This document shows, piece after piece, positions 17,839 through 31,802 of a DNA stretch of 36,494 nucleotides. Below the pieces are notes generated by a model that saw nothing but the letters and a program-made list of their open reading frames with translations, did no database searches and was not told the origin of the DNA. The translations under genes were made by a program, and so were the position numbers. The stretch comes from an uncultured Lachnospiraceae bacterium (GTDB taxonomy: Bacteria; Bacillota; Clostridia; Lachnospirales; Lachnospiraceae): assembly GCA_905235745.1 (NCBI GenBank), contig CAJOMN010000019.1, positions 1 through 36,494 on the forward strand, given 5' to 3'. Every line of letters starts with the position of its first letter. Positions within the stretch are counted from its first letter, which is position 1.

Positions 17839-17867
17839 TTGACAAAATAAGACCATTTGATTACAAT
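17839..17867 (+). promoter_or_regulatory. promoter of the iron/redox operon
   Basis: TTGACA (17839-17844) and TACAAT (17862-17867) with a 17-base spacer differ from the sigma-A consensus at one base. It is followed at once by the triple-palindrome operator, so strong transcription under repressor control is expected. Confidence 0.85.
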
Positions 17868-17873
17868 TCTTAG

Positions 17874-17915
17874 TTAGCAATAGCTAATTAGCGACAGCTA
17901 ATTAGCATACGCTAA
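17874..17915 (+). promoter_or_regulatory. triple 14-bp palindrome operator TTAGCnnnnGCTAA
   Basis: Three abutting palindromes occupy 17874-17887, 17888-17901 and 17902-17915. Each is TTAGC-N4-GCTAA with different central bases (AATA, GACA, ATAC). Conservation of the arms and not of the centres marks a protein-binding site. The position at about +1 to +45 relative to the promoter implies repression. By context the ligand is iron, so a DtxR/IdeR- or Fur-type repressor is the first candidate; the regulator is not in the window. Confidence 0.75.
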
Positions 17916-17985
17916 CCAACAGGAATGGACTGAAGTATTGTAAAAAGTCTATGCGTATACAAGTTGATGGAAAGAGAGTTTCGAT

Positions 17986-19746
17986 TTGAAAACACATTTA
18001 TATAGGAATCTTATTGTAATTTTCATGATCACGGCTTTGTTTGCGTCATTTTGCCGGATCAAAGCGGCCGCAGCAGATTACTATTCTTCCTGGGATGAAT
18101 ACAAGGCATCTGAAGGTATAAGTGATTTTACCTGCAATGATGTGGTGGATGCTATCGATAACGTACTCGCCGTTGCGGTGGCTGACCATAAGGCGGGTAA
18201 TAATGAGGACGCACTGTCCAAGATATCGGATGCCAAGAACAGGTATTGGGGGCAGTCAGGCTTTAAGATCATGATGCAGAAGCAGCTCCCTAGCGCCGGG
18301 AAAAAGACGATAGAGAGTGACTTCGCTGATATCAACAACCTCATAAAGAACGGGAAAGGCAATGACGAAGTTGCTACCGCTGTTGATGTGCTGTCAGCGG
18401 ATCTAAGGCTCTACGCCAATAAGCTTGACGGAGTAGAGGAAGAGGTTGAAACCATAGCCGAGACGGATACACAGGCGACCGAGCTGTTTAACAACAACTA
18501 CTACGCCACATGGGAGGAATATACACAGGCGGCAGGGCTTCCTGTGGGTGTTACGAAATGGAATGAAGTAGCCGATGCAATGTCCGAGGTATTCAGGACA
18601 GCCAAGGCCAAATATGCGCAAGGGGATGCGGAAGGAGCATATAACTGTATAAATAATGGCTATTACGGTTATTACGAGACTACCGGCTTTGAACGAAATG
18701 CGATGGGTTATATCTCGGGAGCAAGGAAATCCGAAGTGGAGCTCCAGTTCTCGGCCTGCAAGTCGGCAACAAAGGGCGGAAGTACAGAGGAATTCAATAA
18801 AGAAGTTGATGTGCTCCGGACCATGATAAGGACTGATGCCAACAAGCTTGACGGAGTTGATGAAAACGGAGAGGCGACAGGCAACTCCAGATCCGCCTCT
18901 ATGGCCACATTTATTGCGTGCTTTGGAATAATATTAAGGGAGGGCTTTGAGGCGATACTTGTTGTGGGTGCCATCATCGCCTACCTTGTCAAAATATCGG
19001 AGAAGAACGGTGAAAACGGCAGGACAAAGCTTCGCCCTGTTTACGTAGGCGCCGTGCTTGGTATAGTTCTGAGCTTTGTATCGGCATGGGCTCTTAACGC
19101 CCTTAAGCTTGCAAACAGCGCCAGTCAGGAGGTCATCGAGGGTGTTACGGCCCTGATAGCGGTGGTAGTGCTTTTCTATGTGTCCAACTGGATGGTGAGC
19201 AAGTCGGAATCTGAAGCGTGGGATGCTTACATTAAGAGCAAGGTCGGTGAAGCTTCTGAAAGAGGGAGCGGTGTGGCTCTTGCCTTCACGGCTTTTCTGG
19301 CAGTGTACAGGGAAGGGGCGGAGGTGATCCTGTTCTACCAGCCCCTGCTTGCAACGGGAGATAAAAGATCCGTATGGCTGGGTTTTGTGCTGGGTGCCGT
19401 GGTACTGGTATTTGTTTATCTTGCCATCCGTTTGCTGTCAGTAAGGCTTCCGCTTAAGCCATTCTTCCTGGCAACAAGTATATTGATGGCCATAATGTCG
19501 ATATCCTTCCTGGGATCGGGGATCAAGGAGCTTATCGAAGGAGATGTTATTTCGATGACATCGCCCACATGGGTGGCATGGATACCTTCAAATTCATTGC
19601 TGGAGGTACTGGGCATATATCCCTGCGTTCAGACTATAGTGCCCCAGATCATATTGACGGTGATCACGGTGGTTACATTTGTATACTGGCTCAAGAAGAA
19701 TAAACGCCTCGCAGATGAAGCCAGATCGGCGCAGGCGGGATCATGA
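17986..19746 (+). CDS. FTR1-family iron permease with duplicated extracytoplasmic domain
   Basis: This 586-residue protein has a signal peptide (1-30) and two homologous extracytoplasmic repeats, about 31-155 and 172-295. Both begin YYxxW(D/E)EY and end with NKLDGV(E/D). A seven-helix FTR1 permease from about residue 305 carries both iron-binding motifs, REGFEA (318-323) and REGAE (442-446). FTR1 proteins take Fe(III) across the membrane, usually coupled to a redox partner. The start is TTG 17986 behind a weak ribosome binding site. It is the first gene of the operon with P19, DUF2318 and ABC genes, as in the Campylobacter P19 system. Confidence 0.95.
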   Translation: MKTHLYRNLIVIFMITALFASFCRIKAAAADYYSSWDEYKASEGISDFTCNDVVDAIDNVLAVAVADHKAGNNEDALSKISDAKNRYWGQSGFKIMMQKQLPSAGKKTIESDFADINNLIKNGKGNDEVATAVDVLSADLRLYANKLDGVEEEVETIAETDTQATELFNNNYYATWEEYTQAAGLPVGVTKWNEVADAMSEVFRTAKAKYAQGDAEGAYNCINNGYYGYYETTGFERNAMGYISGARKSEVELQFSACKSATKGGSTEEFNKEVDVLRTMIRTDANKLDGVDENGEATGNSRSASMATFIACFGIILREGFEAILVVGAIIAYLVKISEKNGENGRTKLRPVYVGAVLGIVLSFVSAWALNALKLANSASQEVIEGVTALIAVVVLFYVSNWMVSKSESEAWDAYIKSKVGEASERGSGVALAFTAFLAVYREGAEVILFYQPLLATGDKRSVWLGFVLGAVVLVFVYLAIRLLSVRLPLKPFFLATSILMAIMSISFLGSGIKELIEGDVISMTSPTWVAWIPSNSLLEVLGIYPCVQTIVPQIILTVITVVTFVYWLKKNKRLADEARSAQAGS

Positions 19747-19750
19747 TACG

Positions 19751-19789
19751 GTAACAGCCTTAATGTATGTAAAGTACATGAAGGGTTAC
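19751..19789 (+). other. stem-loop between FTR1 and P19 genes
   Basis: GTAACAGCCTTAATGTA (from 19751) pairs imperfectly with TACATGAAGGGTTAC (to 19789) around a short loop. There is no U-run after it, so it looks more like an mRNA processing or stabilising element than a terminator. Confidence 0.45.
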
Positions 19790-19822
19790 AAATAAATATA
19801 TGCTATACAAGGAGGAGAAATG

Positions 19823-20491
19823 ATGAAAAAAAGGATTGTAGCAGCATTGTGCGCAACAGCTCTTGCTTCGATGATGATAGCAGGATGTGGACAGAGTTCA
19901 GAAGCGCCTGCAACAGACGCAGCTTCAACGCAGGAGGAAGATGCCGCAGCGGAAGAAGTTGTTAAAGAGGCAGAGGTTGTTGAGGAGGCAGATGATGCCG
20001 CAGCAGGGGCAGGCTTTACCGAGCACCCCATTTTTGAGGATGAAGAGCTTGCGTTTATCAATCTTTCGGCTGTATATTTCCAGTCAGTACCTATGACAGA
20101 CAGTGAGCAGCAGAATTACAAGGCGGAGGATTACGATATCCATCTTGAGGCAGATATTTCCGCACTCGATAATGAGCTCGGATATGGTGTCGGTGACTGG
20201 GTTCCTTATCTTACGGTTGATTACGCCATAGTTAACTCATCAGACAAGAGCGCCGTAACCGATGGAACCTTCATGCCTATGGCAGCATCTGACGGTCCTC
20301 ATTACGGAAACAACATCAAGCTTGATCCGGGTACATACGATGTTACCTTTACTATCCACAGCCCCGGTGAGAACGGTTATCTTATCCATTCGGATGCTGA
20401 AACAGGCCCCGGCGGATTGCTTGCAGACGTATTCGGCAACGGTCCTCTTACCTATACCTATGAAGGATGGGAATTTGCGGGACTTGAGTAA
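19823..20491 (+). CDS. P19/FetP-type periplasmic-like iron-binding lipoprotein
   Basis: This 222-residue lipoprotein (MIAGC lipobox) has an acidic linker to about residue 60 and a P19/Tp34 immunoglobulin-like domain. Family landmarks are AVYFQSVPM, YDIHLEADISAL, GDWVPYLTVDYAI and FMPMAASDGPHYGNN, with Met and His residues that bind copper/iron in this family. It hands iron to FTR1 and may take part in its oxidation or reduction. ATG 19823 has AAGGAGG at 7 bases; ATG 19820 is also possible. The acidic linker replaces the soluble periplasmic form of Gram-negatives with a tethered version. Confidence 0.95.
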   Translation: MKKRIVAALCATALASMMIAGCGQSSEAPATDAASTQEEDAAAEEVVKEAEVVEEADDAAAGAGFTEHPIFEDEELAFINLSAVYFQSVPMTDSEQQNYKAEDYDIHLEADISALDNELGYGVGDWVPYLTVDYAIVNSSDKSAVTDGTFMPMAASDGPHYGNNIKLDPGTYDVTFTIHSPGENGYLIHSDAETGPGGLLADVFGNGPLTYTYEGWEFAGLE

Positions 20492-20538
20492 TGCATCGGG
20501 ACATTTGCTTTAGCAATGTTTAATACAGAACAATGACA

Positions 20539-20604
20539 GCGGCGCACTTCTTACGGAAGCGCGCCGCATGGTGCGTTTAAAAGGAACCCATCTTTAAACG
20601 CACC
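20539..20604 (+). other. two consecutive hairpins between P19 and DUF2318 genes
   Basis: Hairpin one is GCGGCGC (20539-20545) with GCGCCGC (20561-20567), with an inner CTTC/GAAG stem. Hairpin two is a perfect 12-bp pair, GGTGCGTTTAAA (20570-20581) with TTTAAACGCACC (20593-20604), ending 7 bases before the GGAGG of the next gene. The second lacks a clear U-tract. They may set the high expression of FTR1/P19 relative to the rest of the operon by attenuation or by processing. Confidence 0.6.
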
Positions 20605-20621
20605 AAAATGTGGAGGAAGGC

Positions 20622-21875
20622 ATGTTAAGTTATTTATTATATACCATTAAGGCTGTGCTTCTGGGTTCCGTGATCGGTGGAACGGTTACCGGGTATGAGC
20701 GCATAGAACCGGATCGGAGAAATGAGAGGATAATGTCTGTGGGAGCGCTCGCAGGTCTCCTTATTTCCATCGTGATAGCTTATCTTCGAAATAATACGAA
20801 CAAGGTAAGTACAGCGACGATAAATACAGTTATATATACTTCATCTCTGTGTGCCTTTGTTTTGTTGATCATCCTGTGCATCACGGCATTTATAAAGAAG
20901 GGTAACAGGCTCATTGATATCCTTATTTTCAGTGCTCTTGCGACATTTATCGCTTCGCTGACGGTATATTCACTTCCCGAAGTGCTCATGTATCCGCACC
21001 AGATTATGAACACCGAAAAGAGTATGGTATCAACGGATCTTTTGCTCAAGATGGCCGGAGTTTTATTCGGGCTTGTAATTTCTTTCATAGCCTTCATGAC
21101 GGCACTTAAATGCACATCACGGATAAGTAAGAGTGCTGCAGGTGTTTCGGTGTTTCTGCAGATGCTTTTCCTTGAACTGATAATGCTTTCGGGAATTTTA
21201 TCGGTCAATCTGCAGAATGGGAATATCAAATCAAACCACGCCGTTTTTTCATATGTTGTTTTTGTTAAGAATCATAGGAATTATTTCATATATATTTCCT
21301 TTATCCTGCTATTTGCGGAGGCCGTATACCTGCTGATCAAAAGCCTGCATGTAAATGAGGCATACAGGAATCCGGCAGAGCACAGAAAGATCAGGGCCAA
21401 GTGGAGAAATATAAGAAGATGGGCCGTGACCGCTCTGTGTTCCTTTGTTTTGACGATCATTAATCTTACGGTTGTTGAAGCCTATAATTCCAAGGATGTT
21501 AGCCTGTCGCCCGTTGAGGATACCGAGTATGATGATGAAAATATGTATGTAACCTTCGAACAGGTCAGTGACGGTCATCTTCACAGGTTTGCCTATGAGA
21601 GTGCGGACGGTGTGAGCATAAGGTTTATAGTTATTAAAAAGACCGGTTCATCAACCTACGGGATAGGTCTTGATGCGTGTGATATCTGCGGTGAGACAGG
21701 TTATTACGAGAAGGACGGACAGGTAGTATGTAAGCTGTGTGATGTGGTCATGAATGTGAATACAATAGGGTTCAAGGGTGGTTGTAATCCCATAGTGATC
21801 CCTTATGAAATAAAGAACGGAAGGATAATCGTTCCGATAAGCGGTCTGCTTGAATATGAGAAGGAATTCAGGTAG
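20622..21875 (+). CDS. DUF2318 membrane protein with Cys-rich C-terminus
   Basis: This 417-residue protein has about eight hydrophobic helices over residues 1-275 and a C-terminal extracytoplasmic DUF2318 domain. The domain has two CxxC pairs (CDIC at 353-356, CKLC at 370-373) and a later Cys388 (FKGGCNP). The family is encoded beside FTR1 and P19 in several bacteria (Campylobacter Cj1660-like) and is thought to bind a metal or Fe-S-like centre in electron transfer. ATG 20622 is chosen for GGAGG 5 bases upstream. It is the likely redox element at the membrane. Confidence 0.9.
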   Translation: MLSYLLYTIKAVLLGSVIGGTVTGYERIEPDRRNERIMSVGALAGLLISIVIAYLRNNTNKVSTATINTVIYTSSLCAFVLLIILCITAFIKKGNRLIDILIFSALATFIASLTVYSLPEVLMYPHQIMNTEKSMVSTDLLLKMAGVLFGLVISFIAFMTALKCTSRISKSAAGVSVFLQMLFLELIMLSGILSVNLQNGNIKSNHAVFSYVVFVKNHRNYFIYISFILLFAEAVYLLIKSLHVNEAYRNPAEHRKIRAKWRNIRRWAVTALCSFVLTIINLTVVEAYNSKDVSLSPVEDTEYDDENMYVTFEQVSDGHLHRFAYESADGVSIRFIVIKKTGSSTYGIGLDACDICGETGYYEKDGQVVCKLCDVVMNVNTIGFKGGCNPIVIPYEIKNGRIIVPISGLLEYEKEFR

Positions 21876-21900
21876 AAAAGATTGATAATGGAGAATTCAT

Positions 21901-23190
21901 ATGTTTATACGAATGATAGCCAAGGCATTTTTGAGGCAGTGGAAAAAAATGGTCATGATAGCCTTTACTATAGCTCTTGGAGCGTCCTTAGCCACCGCAA
22001 TGCTGTCAGTTATGATGGATGTGGGGGACAAGGTCAATCATGAACTTAAGGCTTATGGCGCCAATATCAGCGTTGTGCCTAAGAATGCCTCGGTAATCTC
22101 AGAACTATATGATATAGAGGACGGGGATGTTTCGGGTGAATATCTTGCCGAGGATGAACTGGGAAAGATCAAGACCATATTCTGGGCATTCAATATAGTG
22201 GACTATGCTCCCTTTATTAGCACGGAAGCGGTTCTTGATGAGGGCAGTACCGTGACTGTGAAGGGCACCTGGTTTGACCATCATATGGCGCTTCCCACCG
22301 GTGAAGAACTGGATGCCGGTGTCATTTCGATGAGGAGCTGGTGGGAGATCATTGACGGAGACTGGCTGGATGAGCAGAAGCTGGGAAGTGACTTTTGCAT
22401 GGTTGGAACAGGGATTGCACAAAAGGAGGGAATTTCCGCCGGGCAGACTATAAGGCTTAAAGGTCCGAAAGCCGAAAAGGATCTTACAGTGGCAGGAGTC
22501 TTTGACGCAGGGAGCGATGAGGACAATGAGATCTATGTGCCGCTTGATACGGCCCAGGAGATATCAGGGCTTGAGGGTAAAGTCAGCAGCATAGAGGTGT
22601 CTGCCCTGACAACACCTGATAACGAGCTGGCAAGAAAAGCGGCGGAGGATCCCGGGTCTCTTTCGGTATCGCAATATGAGACCTGGTACTGTACGGCTTA
22701 CGTGAGCTCGATCTGCTATCAGATAGAAGAGGTGATAACCGATTCGGTTGCCTCGGCGGTAAGGCAGGTTGCCGATTCGGAGGGCCAGATACTTAACAAG
22801 ACCCAGATGCTTATGATACTGATAACCATACTGTCATTGATAGGAGCGGCTCTGGGAATATGTAATCTTGTAACAGCTTCCGTGATGGAACGATCCCAGG
22901 AGATAGGTCTCATGAAGGCTGTCGGAGCCCACAATCCGGCCATCACCGGGTTGGTACTCACCGAGATAATGTGTACGGCAGTGATCGGCGGAGTTATCGG
23001 TTTCTTCGCCGGTATAGGCTTTGCACAGATCATAGGACATACCGTCTTTCAATCGGCCATAGAAATAAGGGCGATGGTAGTGCCCATAGTTATCGTTCTG
23101 GTCATCGTTGTAACACTGATAGGATGCATACCGGCCATCAAGATGCTGCAGAGCCTGCGTCCGACTGAGGTATTACACGGAAGGGCATAA
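21901..23190 (+). CDS. FtsX/MacB-like ABC permease (P19 operon, first)
   Basis: This 429-residue protein has an N-terminal helix, a large extracytoplasmic MacB-like core (about 45-285), then three helices with the FtsX signature around MERSQEIGLMKAVGAHN (about 326-342). It resembles Campylobacter Cj1661. These proteins do not necessarily carry a substrate; type VII mechano-ABC systems move periplasmic partners by force. GGAG precedes the ATG, 25 bases after the DUF2318 gene. Confidence 0.92.
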   Translation: MFIRMIAKAFLRQWKKMVMIAFTIALGASLATAMLSVMMDVGDKVNHELKAYGANISVVPKNASVISELYDIEDGDVSGEYLAEDELGKIKTIFWAFNIVDYAPFISTEAVLDEGSTVTVKGTWFDHHMALPTGEELDAGVISMRSWWEIIDGDWLDEQKLGSDFCMVGTGIAQKEGISAGQTIRLKGPKAEKDLTVAGVFDAGSDEDNEIYVPLDTAQEISGLEGKVSSIEVSALTTPDNELARKAAEDPGSLSVSQYETWYCTAYVSSICYQIEEVITDSVASAVRQVADSEGQILNKTQMLMILITILSLIGAALGICNLVTASVMERSQEIGLMKAVGAHNPAITGLVLTEIMCTAVIGGVIGFFAGIGFAQIIGHTVFQSAIEIRAMVVPIVIVLVIVVTLIGCIPAIKMLQSLRPTEVLHGRA

Positions 23191-23203
23191 GGAGCAAAGC
23201 GAT

Positions 23204-24346
23204 ATGAATAAGAGAAAAATGTATATAAGGATGATAACGGCCTCCCTGCTGAGAAGAAGATCCCGTATGGTGATCGCTCTGCTTGCCATTGCAATAGGGG
23301 CTACGATATTGTCGGGGCTCGTGACCATATACATAGATGTTCCGAGACAGTTGCGGGCTCAGTTCAGAAGCTATGGGGCAAATATGTTGCTTGCCGCCAC
23401 AGAGAGGACCTTTACAAAGGAGGATGTGGATAAGGCCTTGGCCGTGATACCGGGCGAAGAGATAGTGGGAGTGGCTCCGTACAGGTATGAGACTGTCAGG
23501 ATCAACGACAGGCCTATCCTGGCCGCTGCCACCGATATGGAAGGAGCTAAGGCTTCCAGCCCCTTCTGGAAGGTTGACGGCAGTTGGCCGGCTTCTGATG
23601 AGGAGGTTATGGTAGGTAAAAATGTTGCGGACACCTTCAGGCTGTTTGAAGGTGACAGGATCAGTGTGACCTACAGGCCTGAGGATGCGGGTGAGGAAGA
23701 CCTTGACAACAGTGTTGATCTTACCGTAACCGGTATATTGGATACCGGAGGCAAGGAAGAGGACTATATTTATATGACCATAGCAATGATGGAGGAGCTT
23801 ACGGGTGAGGACAGGGGCTTCAATGTCTGCGAAATGTCGATTGCGTCGGAACAGTCCGACCTGTCAGGCTATGCGGACAGGATATCGGCAGACAGTTCAG
23901 TGCTTGATGCCAAGCTGGTAAAGAGGGTTACCCAGTCGGAGACCACAGTACTCGGAAAGCTGCAGGCCCTCGTTCTTCTTGTTACCATAATTGTCATGCT
24001 GTTGACAATGATCTGTGTCGCAACCACAATGACGGCCGTGGTGACTGAGAGAAGAAAGGAGATAGGGCTGAGGAAGGCTCTTGGCGCCTCGGACAGAAGT
24101 ATAATCAATGAGTTTATGGGAGAGGGGCTTGTTCTCGGTGCTGTGGGTGGCCTGTTGGGAGCTGTACTGGGTTTCTGGTTTGCCCAGGCGGTTTCGATGA
24201 ATGTGTTTAACAGTTCGATAAGCCTCATGCCGTGGTTGCTGCCGGCGACGATGGTGGTGTCTGTGCTGGTTACGGGTATTGCCTGTCTTATACCGATAAG
24301 ATCCGCTACGGATGTTGATCCGGCACTTGTATTGAAAGGAGAATGA
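23204..24346 (+). CDS. FtsX/MacB-like ABC permease (P19 operon, second)
   Basis: This 380-residue partner has the same layout: an N-terminal helix (about 19-40), an extracytoplasmic core and three C-terminal helices, with TERRKEIGLRKALGASD before the last two. It pairs with the preceding permease and the following ATPase to form a heterodimeric transporter like Cj1661-Cj1663. AGGAG precedes the ATG, and the gap to the ATPase gene is 1 base. Confidence 0.92.
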   Translation: MNKRKMYIRMITASLLRRRSRMVIALLAIAIGATILSGLVTIYIDVPRQLRAQFRSYGANMLLAATERTFTKEDVDKALAVIPGEEIVGVAPYRYETVRINDRPILAAATDMEGAKASSPFWKVDGSWPASDEEVMVGKNVADTFRLFEGDRISVTYRPEDAGEEDLDNSVDLTVTGILDTGGKEEDYIYMTIAMMEELTGEDRGFNVCEMSIASEQSDLSGYADRISADSSVLDAKLVKRVTQSETTVLGKLQALVLLVTIIVMLLTMICVATTMTAVVTERRKEIGLRKALGASDRSIINEFMGEGLVLGAVGGLLGAVLGFWFAQAVSMNVFNSSISLMPWLLPATMVVSVLVTGIACLIPIRSATDVDPALVLKGE

Positions 24347-24347
24347 T

Positions 24348-25049
24348 ATGAGTACTTTGTTAGAGCTTAAGAATGTATCTAAAATATATGGGGATCTTCA
24401 CGCTCTGGATCATGTGAATATGAAGGTTGAAAAGGGTGAATGGCTGGCAATCATGGGACCGTCGGGCTCCGGCAAGAGTACTATGATGAACATAATCGGT
24501 GCGCTGGATAAGGCCAGCGAGGGTGAGATATTGCTGGATGGTGAGGATATAGCAAAGAAGAGCGCCAAGGCCCTTACAAATATAAGAAGAGACAAGATAG
24601 GGCTTATATTTCAGCAATTTCACCTTGTAAGCTATCTTACCGCAGTTGAAAATGTTATGCTGGCACAGTATTATCACAGTGTTCCCGATGAAAAGGAGGC
24701 ACTGGAGGCCCTTGAACGGGTAGGGCTTAAGGACAGGGCCAGGCATTATCCCAGTCAGCTGTCGGGCGGTGAACAGCAGAGGGTATGTGTGGCAAGAGCT
24801 TTGATCAATTATCCTGAGATCATTCTTGCCGATGAGCCTACCGGTAATCTGGATGAAGCAAATGAGGAGATCGTTGTGGAGCTGTTCCGCAAGCTTCATG
24901 AGGAGGGAACGACGTTGGTGGTCGTAACCCACAATCCTGAGGTTGCTGAAGTGGCGCAAAGGACCATAGTGCTGAGAAACGGTAAGGTTGATCATGAAAG
25001 CATAAATCCCGATTTTACCGGAAAGATAAAGCATATAACCCTGCAGTGA
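24348..25049 (+). CDS. ABC transporter ATPase (LolD/MacB type)
   Basis: This 233-residue ATPase has Walker A GPSGSGKST (37-45), the Q-loop in IGLIFQQFHL, the signature LSGGEQQRV, Walker B IILADEPTGNLD and the H-loop VVTHNP. It is the cytoplasmic motor for the two FtsX-like permeases just upstream. AAAGGAG of its ribosome binding site lies in the end of the permease gene. Confidence 0.96.
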   Translation: MSTLLELKNVSKIYGDLHALDHVNMKVEKGEWLAIMGPSGSGKSTMMNIIGALDKASEGEILLDGEDIAKKSAKALTNIRRDKIGLIFQQFHLVSYLTAVENVMLAQYYHSVPDEKEALEALERVGLKDRARHYPSQLSGGEQQRVCVARALINYPEIILADEPTGNLDEANEEIVVELFRKLHEEGTTLVVVTHNPEVAEVAQRTIVLRNGKVDHESINPDFTGKIKHITLQ

Positions 25050-25077
25050 CATTATAATAAAAACGTGGAGGAACATT

Positions 25078-25515
25078 ATGAGAAAAATCATCGCAATTCT
25101 GTGCGCCGGTATGCTGCTTGCTCTTGCCGGCTGTGGCAGCGGCACTGCGTATAAGGATGGAACCTATGAAGGCAAGAGTAACGTATATGTGGATGAGAGC
25201 GGAGACGACGCAGGCAACGGCTATGGAGTCGTAACGCTGACTATAAAGGATGGCAGGATAGCCGACTGCACATATCTGACCTATGAGGTTGACGGTACCC
25301 TTAAGGATGAAGAATATGGTAAGGAGGACGGAAGAGTCGCAAACCGTGATTATTACAACAAGGCTCAGAAGGCCAATGCCGCATGTAAGGAATACGCAGA
25401 TATGCTTGTACAGAACGGGCAGCTTAAGGGAATAGACGCGATAAGCGGAGCAACCATTAATTATAATGAATTCGAAGAGGCGGTAAACGATGCCCTTGAT
25501 AAGGCAAAGCAGTAA
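25078..25515 (+). CDS. FMN-binding domain lipoprotein, flavinylation site present
   Basis: This 145-residue lipoprotein has a signal peptide ending in LAGC (Cys19) and an FMN-binding domain with the covalent flavinylation motif DAISGAT (Asp120 to Thr126), where ApbE attaches FMN through phosphate to the last Thr. Similar proteins (PplA, RnfG, NqrC) carry electrons outside the membrane. No apbE is in the window. Its position after the P19/ABC genes suggests it passes electrons to extracytoplasmic iron chemistry. AGGAGG-type ribosome binding site (GTGGAGG) is present. Confidence 0.93.
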   Translation: MRKIIAILCAGMLLALAGCGSGTAYKDGTYEGKSNVYVDESGDDAGNGYGVVTLTIKDGRIADCTYLTYEVDGTLKDEEYGKEDGRVANRDYYNKAQKANAACKEYADMLVQNGQLKGIDAISGATINYNEFEEAVNDALDKAKQ

Positions 25516-26032
25516 TAAGAGGCCGGTCCTTAAGGGCAGCATTGCAAGACATACCTGCATATGTCTTGTAAGTGTGATCCTGCTTGTGGGTCTGCCCGCA
25601 TATTTTTTAAAGATACCCAAGCACTTGATTGCCGGTGCTGATGCTATCACCAGTCCGACGGTGGTTATAGAAAAGCCTTCGGGTGATTATATTGTGCTTA
25701 TCAACAGGGAAGCACATACGGACACGGATAAGCTTTCCACATGGACTGATTTTTTTATGGGTAAGGAGATAGGATATCTTTTTGAAGATATAAGCTGTGC
25801 CGTTCTGACAAACGATATCCAGGGGGTCGATATCGCAAGAAGCTTTGCCAGCAGGCTTCCCGAGAACCAGATGAAGATAAGCTCTTATGATGATGCGACT
25901 CTGCTGCTGTCCAAGGCTTATTACGGACATTTCGATATTATCCTTATGTCTTCGGAGGCATACAGGGCATACGGAGCAGACTGGCTTGCGGGTTTGTCCT
26001 TTATTGAGTATATAAGCAGCAGTAGGGAGTAA
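25490..26032 (+). CDS. membrane-anchored protein of unknown function
   Basis: This 180-residue protein has a basic N-terminus, one hydrophobic helix (about residues 22-43), then an extracytoplasmic domain of about 135 residues with alternating strands and helices (TVVIEKPSGDYIVLI, YGHFDIILMSSEAYRAYGAD). I do not recognise a family. Its start overlaps the flavoprotein gene by 26 bases and its stop lies 3 bases before the cytochrome gene, so it is tightly embedded in the redox module. No Cys pair or His cluster suggesting a cofactor is visible. Confidence 0.75.
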   Translation: MPLIRQSSNKRPVLKGSIARHTCICLVSVILLVGLPAYFLKIPKHLIAGADAITSPTVVIEKPSGDYIVLINREAHTDTDKLSTWTDFFMGKEIGYLFEDISCAVLTNDIQGVDIARSFASRLPENQMKISSYDDATLLLSKAYYGHFDIILMSSEAYRAYGADWLAGLSFIEYISSSRE

Positions 26033-26035
26033 TGT

Positions 26036-26587
26036 ATGAGAAGAGTCAATTCCTTTGTAACCATCGGGATAATCGCATTGTTTTTGGCACATATGATCTA
26101 TGGAGGCTTCATCCTGATGGGATGGGTACAGGGCGGAAATACTGTCTTTAAGCTTCTGTCATACTTCATGCTTGTGCTCATACTTATACATATTGTGATA
26201 GGCTGTATCTTAAGTGCCCGGACTATCGGGGCATCCAAAAAGGCCGGTGTATTTTACATTAAGGACAACGCGCTCTTCCTGATAAGAAGGATATCGGGGG
26301 TTGCCATGGTCATCTTTATGCTTGACCATATATTACTGTTCAGGGGAAGGAGTATCGGAGGCACATATGTGTTGAATGAGTACACTACGTTGCGGTTGAT
26401 AAACCAGATACTGCTGGTAGTATCACTTCTGATACACCTACTTGTAAATATCACTCCGCTTAAGCTGGCTCTTGGTCTTACGGATAAGAGAAATTTCAAG
26501 ACGGATGTGCTTGCTGTGCTCTCGATATTGATGCTTCTTTCGGCGATAGCCTTTATCGTTTACTATTTCCGTTGGATACGAAGGTAA
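26036..26587 (+). CDS. diheme cytochrome b membrane subunit (FrdC/SdhC-like)
   Basis: This 183-residue protein has five hydrophobic helices. One His lies in each of the first four: His19 (FLAHMIYG), His52 (LIHIVIG), His98 (MLDHILL) and His134 (LLIHLLVN). RRISG (84-88) stands where SdhC proteins have R-x-T/S-G. Five helices and four axial His are the plan of the Wolinella FrdC and Bacillus SdhC diheme subunits. It should pass electrons between the quinone pool and FrdAB encoded 2.9 kb downstream, or to the outside. It is separated from frdAB by three other genes, which is unusual. Confidence 0.8.
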   Translation: MRRVNSFVTIGIIALFLAHMIYGGFILMGWVQGGNTVFKLLSYFMLVLILIHIVIGCILSARTIGASKKAGVFYIKDNALFLIRRISGVAMVIFMLDHILLFRGRSIGGTYVLNEYTTLRLINQILLVVSLLIHLLVNITPLKLALGLTDKRNFKTDVLAVLSILMLLSAIAFIVYYFRWIRR

Positions 26588-26599
26588 TCTAAGAGCTTT

Positions 26600-27466
26600 A
26601 TGAGACTTGCGAAAAGAAAGGCCTTTATATTTGCCCTGATCCTTGTGACCATAGTCCTTTTGCTAAGGGGTGATATTGGAAGCGAAAACAGGACGGGAAG
26701 AACATACAGCTTAAAAACCCATGCTGAGATAGTGGAAAGGATACGCTCCGCGCTTAAGAACCGTTCGTATCGTGTGACAATATCATTTGATTCGGACTCG
26801 ACGCCGGATAAAGATAAGCTTAAGGCTCTGGTGGATGACCTTATGGAGCAGGCCCTGTATGAAAGCGATGATCCGTCAGGCGGCGATTATATAAGGTATC
26901 AGCTTGGCGGCTACAGGATGAATTACAAGGTTGAGAACGGGCCGTTTAAGAATAAGATCATAATACGATTGAGGCCCTCATATTACACCTCACGGGATGA
27001 GGAGGAGTATGTTGACCAAATGATCTCTCAGATAGTAAATGAGCTTAAGGAAGAACTGCCGTCTGATGCAGGGGATGCTGACAGGATCAGGCTGGTGCAT
27101 GACTATGTAACCGGGCTTCTTGACTATGATATGGTTCATAAAGGTAACAGATCCAATCACAAGAAGACAACAGCCTATGCGGCGCTTAAATATCACAGGG
27201 TGGTATGTCAGGGATACACTGTACTGACTTACAGGCTTCTGAAGGAGCTGTCGGTCCCCTGCAGGATAGTCACAGGTGACGCGGTGAGAGATGGCAGGAG
27301 CGAGAGGCATGCATGGCTGATCATTAAGCTTGATGATTCGATATATTGCATGGATCCCACCTTTGATGACGTGGATGAATGCTATGACTGGTATCTTAAG
27401 ACTCAGGAGGAGTTCTCCGTGGATCACACACCGGACAAACGATGCGAGACGTTTACGATAGATTAA
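26600..27466 (+). CDS. membrane-anchored transglutaminase-like protein
   Basis: This 288-residue protein has an N-terminal helix (about 8-22), an alpha/beta middle region and a transglutaminase-like domain from about residue 160. The catalytic triad is Cys203 (VVCQGYTVL), His237 (ERHAWLII) and Asp252 (YCMDPTFDD). The family contains proteases, cross-linkers and amidases, and a substrate is not visible. Many relatives sit in the cell envelope. It lies 12 bases after the cytochrome gene with a weak ribosome binding site. The reason for its presence in an iron/redox operon is unknown; maturation of an extracytoplasmic partner is one option. Confidence 0.88.
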   Translation: MRLAKRKAFIFALILVTIVLLLRGDIGSENRTGRTYSLKTHAEIVERIRSALKNRSYRVTISFDSDSTPDKDKLKALVDDLMEQALYESDDPSGGDYIRYQLGGYRMNYKVENGPFKNKIIIRLRPSYYTSRDEEEYVDQMISQIVNELKEELPSDAGDADRIRLVHDYVTGLLDYDMVHKGNRSNHKKTTAYAALKYHRVVCQGYTVLTYRLLKELSVPCRIVTGDAVRDGRSERHAWLIIKLDDSIYCMDPTFDDVDECYDWYLKTQEEFSVDHTPDKRCETFTID

Positions 27467-27482
27467 GAAGGGACAGGTCAAG

Positions 27483-28685
27483 ATGAAACAAACGCTTCTT
27501 TTGGCATATAAGAACGTATTAAGGAGAAAGTCAAGAAGTGCTGTGCTTATTGCCCTGGCGGGCTTTTTGGCTTTTGCGCTTTTTATGACAGCTATGATCA
27601 TATCCGCCCTTTTAAAAGGCTTTACTTCACTGGAGGAGAGACTGGGTGCAGATATCATGGTGGTTCCCTACGAGGCTGCCACCAGATCATCCCTTGAGAA
27701 TATCGTCCTTCAGGGAAACACGGGCTATTTTTATATGAACAGTGATGTACTTGATAAGATATCTGCCATGGATGGCATAGAAAGGATATCGGCGCAGTAC
27801 TACCTTGCCAGCGCAACAAGCAGCTGCTGTTCGATACCCGTAGAGATAATAGGCTTTGACCCGCAGACTGATTTTACCATTTCGCCATGGATAAGGAAGA
27901 GCAACGGTAAGGAGCTTCAATATCTGGATATAGTTGTGGGGAACGATATTAATGCTTTTGTGGGTGATACATTGTCTTTTTACGGTGTGGATGTAAGGGT
28001 GGCCGCCAAGCTTGATAAGACCGGAACCGGCTATGATACGGCGGTATTTACCGGACGGGATACCATTAAGACGCTTATTCAGGCCTCCCTTGATAAGAAA
28101 CTGAATGAGTACGGGAATATAAATGCGGGTAATGTGATCTCCTGTATACTGATAGATGTTTCCGACGATGCCGTTACCGAGGAGGTTCTTAATGACATCA
28201 ACATTCATGTAAAAAAGGTTAAGGCGGTACAGACTAAGGAAATGATATCCGGGATAGCAGGCAGTCTTGCCGGCGCATCCTATATGGGAAGGCTTATCAG
28301 TATATGTATATGGATACTGGCTCTTATGATCATGGCAGCTGCTTTCCTGCTTATGACCGGTGAGAGAAAGAGAGAATTCGCACTGCTCCGGGTGGTGGGG
28401 TCAACAAGGAAGGAACTGGCACTGTTGGTTATAGGCGAGGGAGTCATGGTAAGCCTTTTGGGTGGTCTTTTCGGTATAGCGCTGGGAATGGCTGTATTGC
28501 TTCCTTTTTCGGGTCTGCTTGAACAGACCATGGGACTTCCCTTTCTGCTCCCGTCGGCTGCAAGCATGCTTACAGCTGCGCTTCTGGCACTTATCCTTTG
28601 TGGATTGACCGGAGCCGCAACCTCGGGAATATCGGCCTATAAGATAGCCGGAGCCGATACCGGGACTATGTTGAGAGTAGGGTGA
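27483..28685 (+). CDS. FtsX/MacB-like ABC permease (second system)
   Basis: This 400-residue protein has an N-terminal helix, an extracytoplasmic MacB-like core (about 50-260) and three C-terminal helices around ERKREFALLRVVGSTRKELA. It is a single permease, so it likely works as a homodimer with the ATPase that overlaps its stop codon. A Cys pair (SSCCSIP) lies in the core. It is related to the first two permeases but clearly diverged, so it is not a recent copy. Confidence 0.92.
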   Translation: MKQTLLLAYKNVLRRKSRSAVLIALAGFLAFALFMTAMIISALLKGFTSLEERLGADIMVVPYEAATRSSLENIVLQGNTGYFYMNSDVLDKISAMDGIERISAQYYLASATSSCCSIPVEIIGFDPQTDFTISPWIRKSNGKELQYLDIVVGNDINAFVGDTLSFYGVDVRVAAKLDKTGTGYDTAVFTGRDTIKTLIQASLDKKLNEYGNINAGNVISCILIDVSDDAVTEEVLNDINIHVKKVKAVQTKEMISGIAGSLAGASYMGRLISICIWILALMIMAAAFLLMTGERKREFALLRVVGSTRKELALLVIGEGVMVSLLGGLFGIALGMAVLLPFSGLLEQTMGLPFLLPSAASMLTAALLALILCGLTGAATSGISAYKIAGADTGTMLRVG

Positions 28686-29368
28686 TGCAGATGCTTGTTC
28701 ACGGTAAGAATATTAAAAAGGAATTCATAAGGAAAAAAACGGATACCAATGTTTTCACCGCTGTGAGGGAAACCGATATCAGTCTTGAACCGGGAAAGTT
28801 AACGGTCATAACGGGCAGGTCAGGCTCGGGCAAGAGCACTCTGCTTAATATGCTGTCGGGGATACTTATGCCTGACTCGGGTACTGTATGTTATGATGAC
28901 ATAAACATATATGAAATGAGTGACAGGGACCTGTCCCGTTTCAGAAACAGGAATACAGGCTATATCCCTCAGGGCAGCAGTGCGGTATCTTCGCTTAATG
29001 TCAGGGAGAATATCCTGCTGCCTGCAATGTTTGGCGGTAATGACATAAGGATCGATGACAGGGAGCTTGATGCGATGATGGAGAAGCTGTCTGTATATGA
29101 GCTTGCCGGAGTGATGCCTGATGAGCTGTCCGGTGGGGAATTAAGAAGGATGGCGGTGGCGCGGGCCCTCATTTTAAAGCCTGCGGTCATCTATGCGGAT
29201 GAGCCGACAGGGGATCTGGATGATGAGAATACGAAGATAGTCTTTTCCATGCTCAGGGAAGCTGCAGATGCAGGAGCCTGTGTACTCCTGGTAACACACG
29301 AGAGTGATGCGGCAGGATATGCCGATGTCATGTACCGTATGGATGCGGGAAGGCTTGATAAGTGTTGA
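28685..29368 (+). CDS. ABC transporter ATPase (second system)
   Basis: This 227-residue ATPase of the MacB/LolD type has Walker A GRSGSGKSTL, a Q-loop region TGYIPQGSS, the signature LSGGELRRMAVARAL, Walker B VIYADEPTGDLDD and the H-loop LVTHES. ATG 28685 shares bases with the permease stop (TGATG), indicating translational coupling; the in-frame GTG 28682 is less likely. Confidence 0.95.
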   Translation: MQMLVHGKNIKKEFIRKKTDTNVFTAVRETDISLEPGKLTVITGRSGSGKSTLLNMLSGILMPDSGTVCYDDINIYEMSDRDLSRFRNRNTGYIPQGSSAVSSLNVRENILLPAMFGGNDIRIDDRELDAMMEKLSVYELAGVMPDELSGGELRRMAVARALILKPAVIYADEPTGDLDDENTKIVFSMLREAADAGACVLLVTHESDAAGYADVMYRMDAGRLDKC

Positions 29369-29443
29369 AATACGGTAAGCGGATACTTATGCGGAAAGGC
29401 TATAACAGACAGGTGTTTAAGGGCTAAGGCCGGATGATCGGGA

Positions 29444-31111
29444 ATGGGAACGAAAGATGTAAGGGTCAATATAATAGGAGCGGGACTTGCCGGACTGGCA
29501 GCCGCTATCCGGCTGTCACAGCTGGGCGTGCAATCAAGACTTGTATCCGTACAGCCATCGGAGAGAGCACAGAGCAATCTCGCAGAGGGCGGGATAAACG
29601 CCTGCCTTGATCTTATGGGAGAAGAGGATACGGTTGAGGAGCATATAAAGGATACCCTGCGGGGAGGGTGCTTTTTGGCTGATGAGGCCATGGTGGAGGG
29701 CCTGTGTAAAGAAGCGCCTGAGATAATACGGGAGCTTTCAGGATACGGAGTTGCCTTTGCAAGGGAGAACGGAAGACTCATACAGAGGAATTTCGGGGGT
29801 CAGAAAAAGAAAAGGACCGCTTTTGTCAAGAGTTCTACCGGTAAGGTGATAATGGCCTCAATGATAAAAGAGGTAAGAAAGCATGAACGAAACGGTATGG
29901 TTCAGAGGCTTTTTCATCATGAGTATACGGGACTTATAACGGATAAGACACGGGATGAAAAAGCCCGTGATCCGGGATCTTATATGGTTAAATGCAGGGG
30001 AGTGTATATAAGGGATACATATGATTCTTCTCTGTCTGCCCTGTACGGTCCCGTGATAATAGCTACCGGAGGAATGAACGGTGTATTTGAAGCTATGACA
30101 ACAGGGACCTATGCCAATACAGGAGAAGTCAGTGCGGATCTTTTCATGAGAGGGGTCAGGCTTGCCAATCTTGAATTTATCCAGTACCATCCTACGACAG
30201 TGTCTATTTCCGGTAAAAGAATGCTGATCTCGGAGGCGGCAAGAGGTGAGGGCGGCCGTTTGTTTTATTACGGAGATAATGAAGAGAAGATATATTTTCT
30301 TGAGGATGAGTTCGGCGAAGGCGGAAACCTGATGCCAAGGGATGTTATATCCAAAAGAATGGATATGTGCGGGAAGCAGGTATATCTGGACCTTACACAG
30401 ATAGACGGGGATAAATGGAATAAGAGACTGTCGGATCTGAGGAGAGAGATCATGTATTATCTGTCAACAGACCCCGTAAAGGAGCCTGTGCCCGTATCCC
30501 CCGGGATCCATTTTTTTATGGGTGGCATTAAGGTCGGAAGGGATCATATGACCAATATCAGAGGACTGTACGCAGCAGGAGAGTGTTCATGCGCCTACCA
30601 TGGGGCCAACAGGCTTGGCGGCAACTCGCTTTTGGGAGCAATATACGGCGGTAAGGTGGCGGCAGCAAGTGCTGCAGCCATATATAAAGATGAATACATC
30701 GGTGCTGATGATACCCGGAAGGATGCGGATGACTTTTCGGATGAGCGCATGAAGGCTTACCTTAAGGAGCCCGGTGATAAGGATATGGAATTAAGGGTTC
30801 GCATGAGGAAGCTGCTTGCTTCGGCGTTGTCGGTTGTAAGGAAAGAGGCAGAGATTGAGGCTGCCATACGGCAAACGGACAGCCTCTTAAAGGAGGCGGA
30901 GGATTTGGGTGCGTGTATCAGGACACTTTCACTGCTCATGCTTTCAAAGGCTATGCTCGTAAGTGCTTATGGCAGAAAGGAATCACGCGGTGCCCATAAT
31001 CTGGCCGAATATCCTAAGCAGGCCGAGGAATATGGAAAAAACAGCACTGTTGCCATAGAGGATGGCAGGATCAGGCTTTCTTACGAATACCCCGGAGAAT
31101 ATTGTGAATAG
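29444..31111 (+). CDS. frdA: fumarate reductase/succinate dehydrogenase flavoprotein subunit
   Basis: This 555-residue flavoprotein has the FAD site GAGLAGLAAA (12-21) and all catalytic dicarboxylate residues in context: QYHPTTV, SEAARGEGGR, PGIHFFMGGI and NRLGGNSLLG. It interconverts fumarate and succinate. The His that normally binds FAD covalently (R-S-H-S before the AEGG/AQGG motif) is Gln43 here (RAQSNLAEGG). FAD should therefore be non-covalent, which in studied variants favours fumarate reduction over succinate oxidation. It is encoded last but one in the iron/redox operon, overlapping frdB by 8 bases, and the cytochrome subunit is encoded further upstream. Confidence 0.93.
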   Translation: MGTKDVRVNIIGAGLAGLAAAIRLSQLGVQSRLVSVQPSERAQSNLAEGGINACLDLMGEEDTVEEHIKDTLRGGCFLADEAMVEGLCKEAPEIIRELSGYGVAFARENGRLIQRNFGGQKKKRTAFVKSSTGKVIMASMIKEVRKHERNGMVQRLFHHEYTGLITDKTRDEKARDPGSYMVKCRGVYIRDTYDSSLSALYGPVIIATGGMNGVFEAMTTGTYANTGEVSADLFMRGVRLANLEFIQYHPTTVSISGKRMLISEAARGEGGRLFYYGDNEEKIYFLEDEFGEGGNLMPRDVISKRMDMCGKQVYLDLTQIDGDKWNKRLSDLRREIMYYLSTDPVKEPVPVSPGIHFFMGGIKVGRDHMTNIRGLYAAGECSCAYHGANRLGGNSLLGAIYGGKVAAASAAAIYKDEYIGADDTRKDADDFSDERMKAYLKEPGDKDMELRVRMRKLLASALSVVRKEAEIEAAIRQTDSLLKEAEDLGACIRTLSLLMLSKAMLVSAYGRKESRGAHNLAEYPKQAEEYGKNSTVAIEDGRIRLSYEYPGEYCE

Positions 31112-31802
31112 GCTTATAAGGATAAGACGACAGGAGAATAAGGACAGCCTGCCTTATTATGAGGAATTCTGTTATGAGGTGAATGACGGGGAGGCAAGGA
31201 TATCAACGGTGCTTCTTGAACTTTCAAGGCCGGGTGTGCGTAATAAAGCAGGAGAACAGACTCGTCCCGTAAGCTGGGAACACAGCTGTCATCAGAAACG
31301 GTGCGGCGGCTGTTCCATGATCATCAACGGGGAGCCCCGTCTTGCCTGTGATACAAGACTTTCAGATCTTAAAGGAGATGTGATAAGGCTTGAACCCCTG
31401 AAGAAATTCCCTGTGGTATGTGATCTTCTTGTGGACAGGAGCGCTGTGTTTGAACGCTACAGAGAGCTTGGCCTGTATCTTGAAGAAGAAACGGCTTATG
31501 ACGGATATGATGATGAAACGGTGACAGAGGCGGCCTTCTGTCTTCAGTGCGGTCTCTGCCTTGAGGTATGTCCCAATTATCATCCGGCCGGAGAATTCCT
31601 TGGAATGTCCGGCATGACAGAAATGGCAGGGCTACTGGTGCAGGCTGAGGGAGACAAGGCCGGAGAACTCAAGAAGACATACAGGAGGGATGTATATGAA
31701 GGCTGTGGCAAATCCCTCTCATGCAGAAATATATGTCCGGCAGGACTTGATATGGAAATGCTGCTTGCAAGAAGTAACAGGCGGGCCTGGACCCGCAGAT
31801 AG
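31104..31802 (+). CDS. frdB: fumarate reductase/succinate dehydrogenase iron-sulfur subunit
   Basis: This 232-residue protein has three Fe-S sites. The [2Fe-2S] ligands lie in CHQKRCGGC with a Cys 11 residues later (RLAC). The [4Fe-4S] and [3Fe-4S] ligands lie in CLQCGLCLEVCPN and CGKSLSCRNICP. These spacings are those of SdhB/FrdB. GTG 31104 is the start, with GGAG 6 bases upstream inside frdA; an upstream in-frame ATG at 31062 lies deeper in frdA and has no advantage. It carries electrons between FrdA and the cytochrome b. No terminator is obvious in the 57 bases before the convergent lipoprotein gene. Confidence 0.93.
   Translation: MNRLIRIRRQENKDSLPYYEEFCYEVNDGEARISTVLLELSRPGVRNKAGEQTRPVSWEHSCHQKRCGGCSMIINGEPRLACDTRLSDLKGDVIRLEPLKKFPVVCDLLVDRSAVFERYRELGLYLEEETAYDGYDDETVTEAAFCLQCGLCLEVCPNYHPAGEFLGMSGMTEMAGLLVQAEGDKAGELKKTYRRDVYEGCGKSLSCRNICPAGLDMEMLLARSNRRAWTRR

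Follow-up and report, generated by a model that had tools for sequence, protein, structure and literature searches.

The window analysed here, a stretch of 36,494 nucleotides from an uncultured Lachnospiraceae bacterium (GenBank assembly GCA_905235745.1, contig CAJOMN010000019.1), carries an apparent operon for P19-type iron uptake that continues into genes for a putative cytochrome b and a fumarate reductase-like pair. It lies on contig C19 of a 2.5 Mb genome in 32 contigs, 99.5% complete. Fourteen codirectional open reading frames of the window span 17986-31802 on the + strand, with intergenic distances of -50 to +118 bases and a 75-base gap before frdA, in keeping with an earlier reading made from the letters alone (the sequence-only reading), which had described them as running in one direction with small gaps or overlaps. 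Pfam assigns 12 of the 14 (FTR1, P19, an FtrD-like protein, three FtsX permeases, two ATPases, FMN_bind, a transglutaminase core, FrdA and FrdB); the other two, which we call UNK and CYB, were matched by neither Pfam nor NCBIfam at E 0.01. The genes are as follows.

17986-19746, + strand: FTR1 iron permease with a long N-terminal region (PF03239; copy on contig C26 76% identical)
19820-20491, + strand: P19/FetP-type protein, lipobox read by eye (PF10634; solved homologues P19 and FtrA-P19)
20610-21875, + strand: FtrD-like membrane protein, DUF2318 (PF10080)
21901-23190, + strand: FtsX/MacB-type permease 1 (PF12704 and PF02687)
23204-24346, + strand: FtsX/MacB-type permease 2 (PF02687 and PF12704)
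24348-25049, + strand: ATP-binding cassette (ABC) ATPase 1 (PF00005)
25078-25515, + strand: flavin mononucleotide (FMN)-binding lipoprotein with the ApbE motif DAISGAT (PF04205; motif and lipobox read)
25490-26032, + strand: UNK, anchored protein whose start codon is uncertain (degenerate motif DAITSPT at residue 51)
26036-26587, + strand: CYB, predicted five-helix, four-His cytochrome b resembling an FrdC anchor (His19, 52, 98 and 134)
26600-27466, + strand: transglutaminase-like protein (PF01841; the operon's first gene in genomes G551 and G706)
27483-28685, + strand: FtsX-type permease 3 (PF02687)
28682-29368, + strand: ABC ATPase 2 (PF00005)
29444-31111, + strand: FrdA/SdhA-type flavoprotein, Gln43 at the position of the covalent flavin adenine dinucleotide (FAD) His (PF00890 and PF02910)
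31062-31802, + strand: FrdB/SdhB iron-sulfur protein, true start possibly further 3' (PF13085 and PF13183; best solved match Wolinella FrdB)

Results

The first six genes follow the order FTR1-P19-DUF2318-FtsX-FtsX-ATPase of P19/Fet clusters, as the sequence-only reading had recognised and as frames and Pfam confirm; Campylobacter jejuni FetMP-FetABCDEF shares these six genes (P19, FTR1, DUF2318, two FtsX-type permeases, ATPase) and their order. Where C. jejuni has the thioredoxins FetEF, the window has the FMN lipoprotein, followed, beyond the C. jejuni set, by UNK-CYB-FrdAB, the transglutaminase-like protein and a second ABC pair. The replacement of thioredoxins by a flavin protein had been read correctly, but it is not new: Gram-positive P19 clusters have an FMN-binding protein (PF04205 in the window) as their seventh gene (Liu 2018; Meheust 2021; PMC6083913, PMC8238504), and the six-gene core with the FMN protein is thus already published. 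The excerpted portions of these accounts do not mention FrdAB with P19, and, among the papers listed by literature searches on this subject, no title or opening of an abstract dealt with a linkage of P19/FTR1 to fumarate reductase, although individual loci may stand in the supplementary tables of PMC8238504. The FMN lipoprotein (25078-25515) matches through DAISGAT the motif D-x-x-[ST]-G-A-[ST], described as the ApbE flavinylation motif (PMC12052999), and a single ApbE was found in the genome.

The sequence-only reading had staked its proposal in part on conserved linkage in related genomes, and such linkage exists. Contig C26 of the same genome holds a second operon with all 14 genes in identical order, 43-93% identical, and all 14 are also present in G147, with FrdAB immediately after CYB. 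UNK-CYB-FrdAB shares a contig with FTR1/P19 in G147, G706, G551, G597 and G743, besides the host genome itself. Two of these, G706 and G551, belong to two other families and have the order transglutaminase-like, FTR1, P19, FtrD, FtsX, FtsX, ABC1, FMN, UNK, CYB, FrdA, FrdB, DUF4418, FtsX3, ABC2, with a 391-residue frame between FrdA and FrdB in G551 and FtsX1 split over two frames in G706. In G597 and G743 the UNK-CYB-FrdAB genes are closely followed downstream by a GntR-domain gene and FTR1-P19; the two halves are found at contig ends in G760, and on different contigs in G648 and G665. The contig of a Butyrivibrio metagenome-assembled genome is cut within FtsX2 and continues with ABC1, FMN, UNK, CYB, FtsX3, ABC2, FrdA and FrdB, with no transglutaminase-like match on it. 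A different solution is seen in the P19 operon of G142, whose last gene (L019:11470-13428) is an FMN_bind and FAD_binding_2 fusion of the flavocytochrome c type with a signal-like N-terminus; it starts 13 bases after the second ATPase, and no separate FMN gene was seen there. As a side observation, the C26 copy has a DUF4418-like frame before FTR1 (L014, about 1250-1677) with an in-frame stop, read by eye, and relatives carry intact DUF4418 genes.

Across the family sample, P19 occurs in 4 of 150 genomes and CYB likewise in 4 of 150: the two genes share a locus in the host genome and in G147 and lie apart in G072; in G142 only P19 was found, and in G025 only CYB. At the level of the order (392 genomes; the P19 and CYB searches agree in size, genus counts and handles and are taken to cover one genome set), the searches found P19 in 13 genomes and a close CYB (E < 1e-40) in 16; weaker matches (8 of 24 genomes, E > 1e-40) were not counted as close relatives. 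A close CYB is present in 8 of the 13 P19 genomes versus 8 of the 379 others (Fisher p 1.2e-9), and, by genus, in 6 of 9 P19 genera versus 5 of 163 (p 1.1e-6), with genus g475 scored as shared though its P19 (G646) and its CYB fragment (G664) come from different genomes (otherwise 5). Outside the order, further P19 genomes number 6 in the class sample and 15 in the phylum sample, and none of the stretches fetched around their P19 genes contains UNK, CYB or FrdAB. Thus, judged from these comparisons, the UNK-CYB-FrdAB module is a local addition to a widespread P19 core. The third FtsX permease, in most cases with a second ATPase, recurs in the Gram-positive P19 clusters of G322, G457, G441, G490, G341, G172 and G662, whereas none of the 15 phylum P19 loci has that permease. 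For the 21 Gram-positive P19 clusters from outside the window's order, the stretch viewed contains neither a cytochrome nor FrdAB.

Related genes also occur elsewhere. The order has standalone CYB-FrdA-FrdB loci, and a UNK-CYB-FrdA-FrdB cassette recurs at 97-100% DNA identity over 3.3 kb among 15 loci, in hosts from Blautia, Eubacterium and Coprococcus through Peptostreptococcus, Urinicoccus and Megasphaera (L021-L031, L033-L035 and L037, 3.3 kb around CYB; also L016, L018, L076 and L121). The upstream gene was viewed at four loci, and at each of them a Zn/Cd-type P-type ATPase precedes the cassette. This pattern suggests that a unit of metal ATPase and fumarate reductase has recently been transferred horizontally.

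CYB had been called a five-helix, four-His cytochrome b; the His and helix counts are borne out by an alignment of five rows, in which four His are invariant, and by a structure model with five long helices. Its profile found no match among PDB sequences, and Foldseek with the model gave none at E 0.001 or better; in a second structural comparison the six best rows are all complex II anchors, of three different proteins, and CYB is in this respect similar to the diheme anchor proteins found in quinol:fumarate reductases. The nearest named relative, 56% identical, comes from the uncultured Butyrivibrio genome mentioned above.

UNK lies just upstream of CYB at every close CYB locus, except the fragmentary L083, and is absent from the standalone CYB-FrdAB loci L084-L090. 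The protein was correctly described as anchored, having one hydrophobic span; this span is followed at once by a flavinylation-like heptad, which needs a correction, as it is broken in the window (DAITSPT) and departs from the strict motif. The strict heptad occurs in 0 of 11 P19-type UNK rows versus 13 of 16 P-ATPase-type rows (the partial row L032 left out and the gene of L015/L036 counted once); the other three P-ATPase-type rows have Val for Ala, while P19-type rows replace the Gly by Ser or Arg, and the window copy also the Ala by Pro. An FMN lipoprotein is found in the operon or genome for 8 of the 11 P19-type rows, and for the remaining 3 the P19 contig or fetched stretch ends before the place of that gene; around the P-ATPase-type cassettes no FMN lipoprotein match was seen within the stretches fetched. 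The solved homologue of UNK, 3noh (E 1.2e-19), is annotated as a putative peptide-binding protein, and a P-ATPase-type relative matches PF21914 (DUF6921), which the window UNK does not; UNK is a divergent relative of DUF6921. Its structure model is too poor for use of the fold (mean predicted local distance difference test score 45.6). We infer that UNK may be a former flavin carrier that turned into a docking partner when a separate FMN lipoprotein became available.

FrdA keeps H249, E264, R299, H356 and R390, which we take to be the dicarboxylate-site residues by analogy with E. coli FrdA/SdhA, in 32 of 35 rows, the remainder being fragments. In all 34 rows that cover the position, Gln stands where the solved SdhA has its covalent-FAD His. 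Full-length matches comprise FAD_binding_2 and the Frd C-terminal domain; short N-terminal Rossmann-type matches overlap the FAD domain, and among the Pfam matches no separate NAD(P)H domain was seen. FrdB has a 2Fe-2S domain (PF13085) and a dicluster domain (PF13183) and aligns to Wolinella FrdB. Two Frd-type FAD_binding_2 proteins were found in the genome, both within P19 operons, the other 11 FAD_binding_2 matches scoring 30 bits or less. In a tree of 21 FrdA rows, the P19-associated, P-ATPase-associated and standalone proteins form separate groups, each set off by a starred branch; the P19 group also takes in three rows from the order whose module lies away from P19, and the window FrdA sits on a long branch. 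Standalone CYB-FrdA-FrdB loci (L085, L086, L088, L089 and L090) are also without the covalent-FAD His, and complex II of a noncovalent-FAD kind may extend beyond iron operons. Among the 11 P19-type rows the UNK motif is altered most in the window copy, whose FrdA also has the longest end branch of the tree; the C26 copy may for this reason be the more typical of the two.

The rest of the genome bears on possible electron partners. PF01040 finds one UbiA-family protein, closest to decaprenyl-phosphate phosphoribosyltransferase (95 bits, below the 234 that this model requires). Its matches to prenyltransferases of quinone pathways are far weaker, and its neighbours, by eye, are unlike a quinone pathway; no MenA-type prenyltransferase is among the UbiA-family matches of this 99.5% complete genome. 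Since this is the only UbiA-family protein found, gene content makes a menaquinone pool unlikely and quinol an unlikely partner of CYB, and a quinone-linked complex II is disfavoured, although quinone might be imported or come by another route. RnfG is encoded next to ApbE, within what, read by eye, appears to be an rnfCDGEAB operon.

Three further features precede or interrupt the coding sequence.

17839-17867, + strand: promoter-like TTGACA-17-TACAAT, 11 of 12 matches, directly before the palindromes
17874-17915, strand not assigned: three tandem 14-base palindromes TTAG-N6-CTAA, candidate operator
20492-20609, + strand: hairpin-forming spacer of 118 bases in the P19-FtrD gap (-45.4 kcal/mol, z -5.1)

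The promoter-like site is the best of 24 in the scan, of a type that is not rare (23.7 expected from shuffles). The palindrome TTAG-N6-CTAA occurs 3 times in the window versus 0.57 expected, and in 13 of 17 P19 operons of the host's order it stands no more than 300 bases before the first gene, which was set by hand for each operon; shuffled upstream regions (200 sets) gave a mean of 0.15 such operons and a maximum of 2. In the class sample it precedes 1 of 6 P19 operons and in the phylum sample 1 of 14 (of the 15 phylum loci, L152, whose operon starts at a contig end, was left out), and within 244 kb of the order's loci only four sites occur elsewhere, two of them further upstream of the C26 operon. 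The sequence-only reading had placed an iron-type operator here: the tandem sites behind a promoter-like element are present, but the label has to be corrected, as the shared palindrome supports common regulation of these P19 operons and does not indicate iron as the signal. C. jejuni has a Fur site, whereas the window has TTAG-N6-CTAA. The longer form TTAGC-N4-GCTAA was rejected as a genome-wide regulon motif, its three forward sites all falling in this locus and equalling the backwards-control count (the looser form was not scanned genome-wide); with two mismatches it is not enriched in the window either (13 found versus 16.4 expected). GntR-domain genes were also considered as candidates for the operator's regulator: they stand beside FTR1 or FrdB in families f4 and f84 but are absent beside other operator-bearing operons. 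Homologous GntR-domain regulators were recorded at L082:2720-3829, L117:6584-7891, L119:6445-7707, L120:823-2070, L114:7312-8781, L115:2428-3834 and L078:1800-2969, next to FTR1 or FrdB and in two families, two of them with an aminotransferase-like match.

Stable hairpins are predicted for the P19-FtrD spacer also in L014, L015, L019, L079, L112, L119 and L120 (the shuffle control covers the window only), with no obvious common sequence among the eight operons folded; Rfam gave no match in the window at gathering scores. Because of these predicted hairpins, expression may differ between the two sides of the spacer, and regulation within the same gap is also suspected in C. jejuni (PMC10783030).

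Discussion

The sequence-only reading had proposed a dedicated electron path for extracytoplasmic iron. Judged from gene content, a dedicated transmembrane path in the P19 operon fits well with the conserved linkage, the co-occurrence of P19 and CYB and the lack of any other Frd-type flavoprotein found in the genome. It is, by the same measure, not needed by all P19 systems, as 5 of the 13 P19 genomes of the order have no close CYB relative and none of the 15 sampled elsewhere in the phylum shows the module in the stretch fetched around P19. Our leaning, held with somewhat less than even confidence, is that the locus encodes an iron importer of the P19/Fet type that includes its own outlet for electrons across the membrane; these would flow inward, rather than outward for ferric reduction. 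The specific form that we have in mind, an oxygen-independent ferroxidase with a quinone-free path from Fe(II) through the flavin lipoprotein and the diheme cytochrome to a cytoplasmic fumarate reductase, serving FTR1, is possible but more doubtful. Iron(II) bound to P19 would give an electron to the FMN lipoprotein, directly or via FtrD, and the lipoprotein, probably docked by UNK, would deliver it to CYB, where it would enter at the outer heme and leave from the inner one to the FrdB clusters; FrdA would then reduce fumarate in the cytoplasm, and the iron(III) formed at the permease would enter through FTR1. The complex would act as a quinol:fumarate reductase with an extracytoplasmic flavoprotein in place of quinol, which is the simplest reading because no quinone synthesis was found and such a flavoprotein is encoded alongside. 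The resulting ferroxidase would serve FTR1 as Fet3p serves yeast Ftr1p, with fumarate instead of oxygen.

The enzymes of Wolinella, Desulfovibrio gigas and Chloroflexus are of the complex II type with one diheme anchor. The quinol:fumarate reductases of the first two and the succinate dehydrogenase of the third share with the window's proteins the FrdA site residues, the FrdB cluster domains and, by prediction, the five-helix, four-His anchor; the window differs in having no covalent-FAD His, no detected quinone synthesis, the additional UNK and a location in an iron operon. In the Listeria-type extracellular flavinylated fumarate reductase, a flavinylated domain is tied to fumarate reduction, a fusion of the kind seen in the G142 P19 operon; unlike it, the window's reductase is without a signal sequence and would be wired through a cytochrome. 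FtrABCD and yeast Fet3p-Ftr1p have an FTR1-type permease thought to use iron oxidation, as proposed here, but no copper oxidase domain appears among the operon's Pfam matches and the proposed acceptor is fumarate.

Several observations lead us to favour the inward direction. FrdA has Gln at the covalent-FAD His position, and homologues with noncovalent FAD reportedly reduce fumarate and do not oxidise succinate (PMC9557727); in G142, the P19 operon ends in a fumarate-type acceptor in place of FMN protein and FrdAB; and yeast Ftr1p is described as moving only Fe3+ made in situ by Fet3p (PMC11966278), with C. jejuni FetEF suggested as oxidases in vivo (PMC10783030). A number of points weigh on the other side. 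Noncovalent FAD is deduced here from a single residue, and the standalone FrdA proteins of the order also have Gln, which is therefore no adaptation to iron. Five of the order's P19 genomes (G542, G547, G577, G662 and, on a short contig, G646) have no close CYB, the same type of module stands behind Zn/Cd-type P-type ATPases, where a role in ferroxidation is not obvious, and ferrochelatase (PF00762) was not found in the genome, so that heme would have to come by another route or from outside. Published proposals also differ: thioredoxins and FMN proteins have been proposed to reduce ferric iron and E. coli FetM has been called a ferrous permease (PMC6083913), the FMN protein has been likened to assimilatory iron reductases (PMC8238504), and the C. 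jejuni model draws FetEF as relaying reducing power, despite their suggested oxidase activity (PMC10783030).

The last points bring forward the opposite direction, a ferric reductase in which FrdAB, fed by succinate or another cytoplasmic donor, would send electrons through CYB and the FMN lipoprotein to Fe(III) before uptake. Two-heme complex II anchors can conduct electrons in both directions, which counts in its favour, as does the published proposal that the FMN proteins and thioredoxins encoded in P19 clusters act in reduction (PMC6083913, PMC8238504). We nevertheless regard it as unlikely, though a serious contender: FrdA shows no separate NAD(P)H domain by Pfam and is without the His that is linked to succinate oxidation, and the fumarate-reductase-like fusion of G142, if secreted, cannot alone draw electrons from the cytoplasm.

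Iron might also be no substrate at all. UNK-CYB-FrdAB could be a quinone-free fumarate reductase fed by extracytoplasmic flavoproteins (e.g. Rnf) and regulated jointly with iron uptake, a form of iron-controlled fumarate respiration consistent with the standalone CYB-FrdA-FrdB loci of the order, the occurrence of the module behind a P-type ATPase and the position of RnfG beside ApbE. Yet each of the two Frd copies that the genome yielded belongs to a P19 operon, the P19-associated FrdA rows lie on one side of a starred branch (with three same-order module rows inside), and an enzyme with Fe-S clusters and heme would seem an odd choice for induction under iron shortage; we consider this explanation rather improbable. 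Far less credible is a fortuitous juxtaposition of a core iron operon with later, separate units that share no function with it. The strong hairpins in the P19-FtrD gap, the 75 bases before frdA and the separate contigs of the two units in G648 and G665 would suit such an arrangement, but the same order is kept in a diverged paralogous operon and recurs in other families, and P19 and CYB co-occur significantly.

FTR1-type permeases are thought to need iron oxidation, which raises the question of how strict anaerobes drive them. A P19 operon with its own complex II-like module, no other having been found in the genome, names fumarate as a candidate acceptor and allows the redox direction in P19 systems, which are widespread, to be tested with purified components. 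If the proposed inward path is correct, complex II would serve a purpose beyond respiration and the citric acid cycle, a flavoprotein would replace quinone, and fumarate would be the terminal acceptor of an iron-uptake system.

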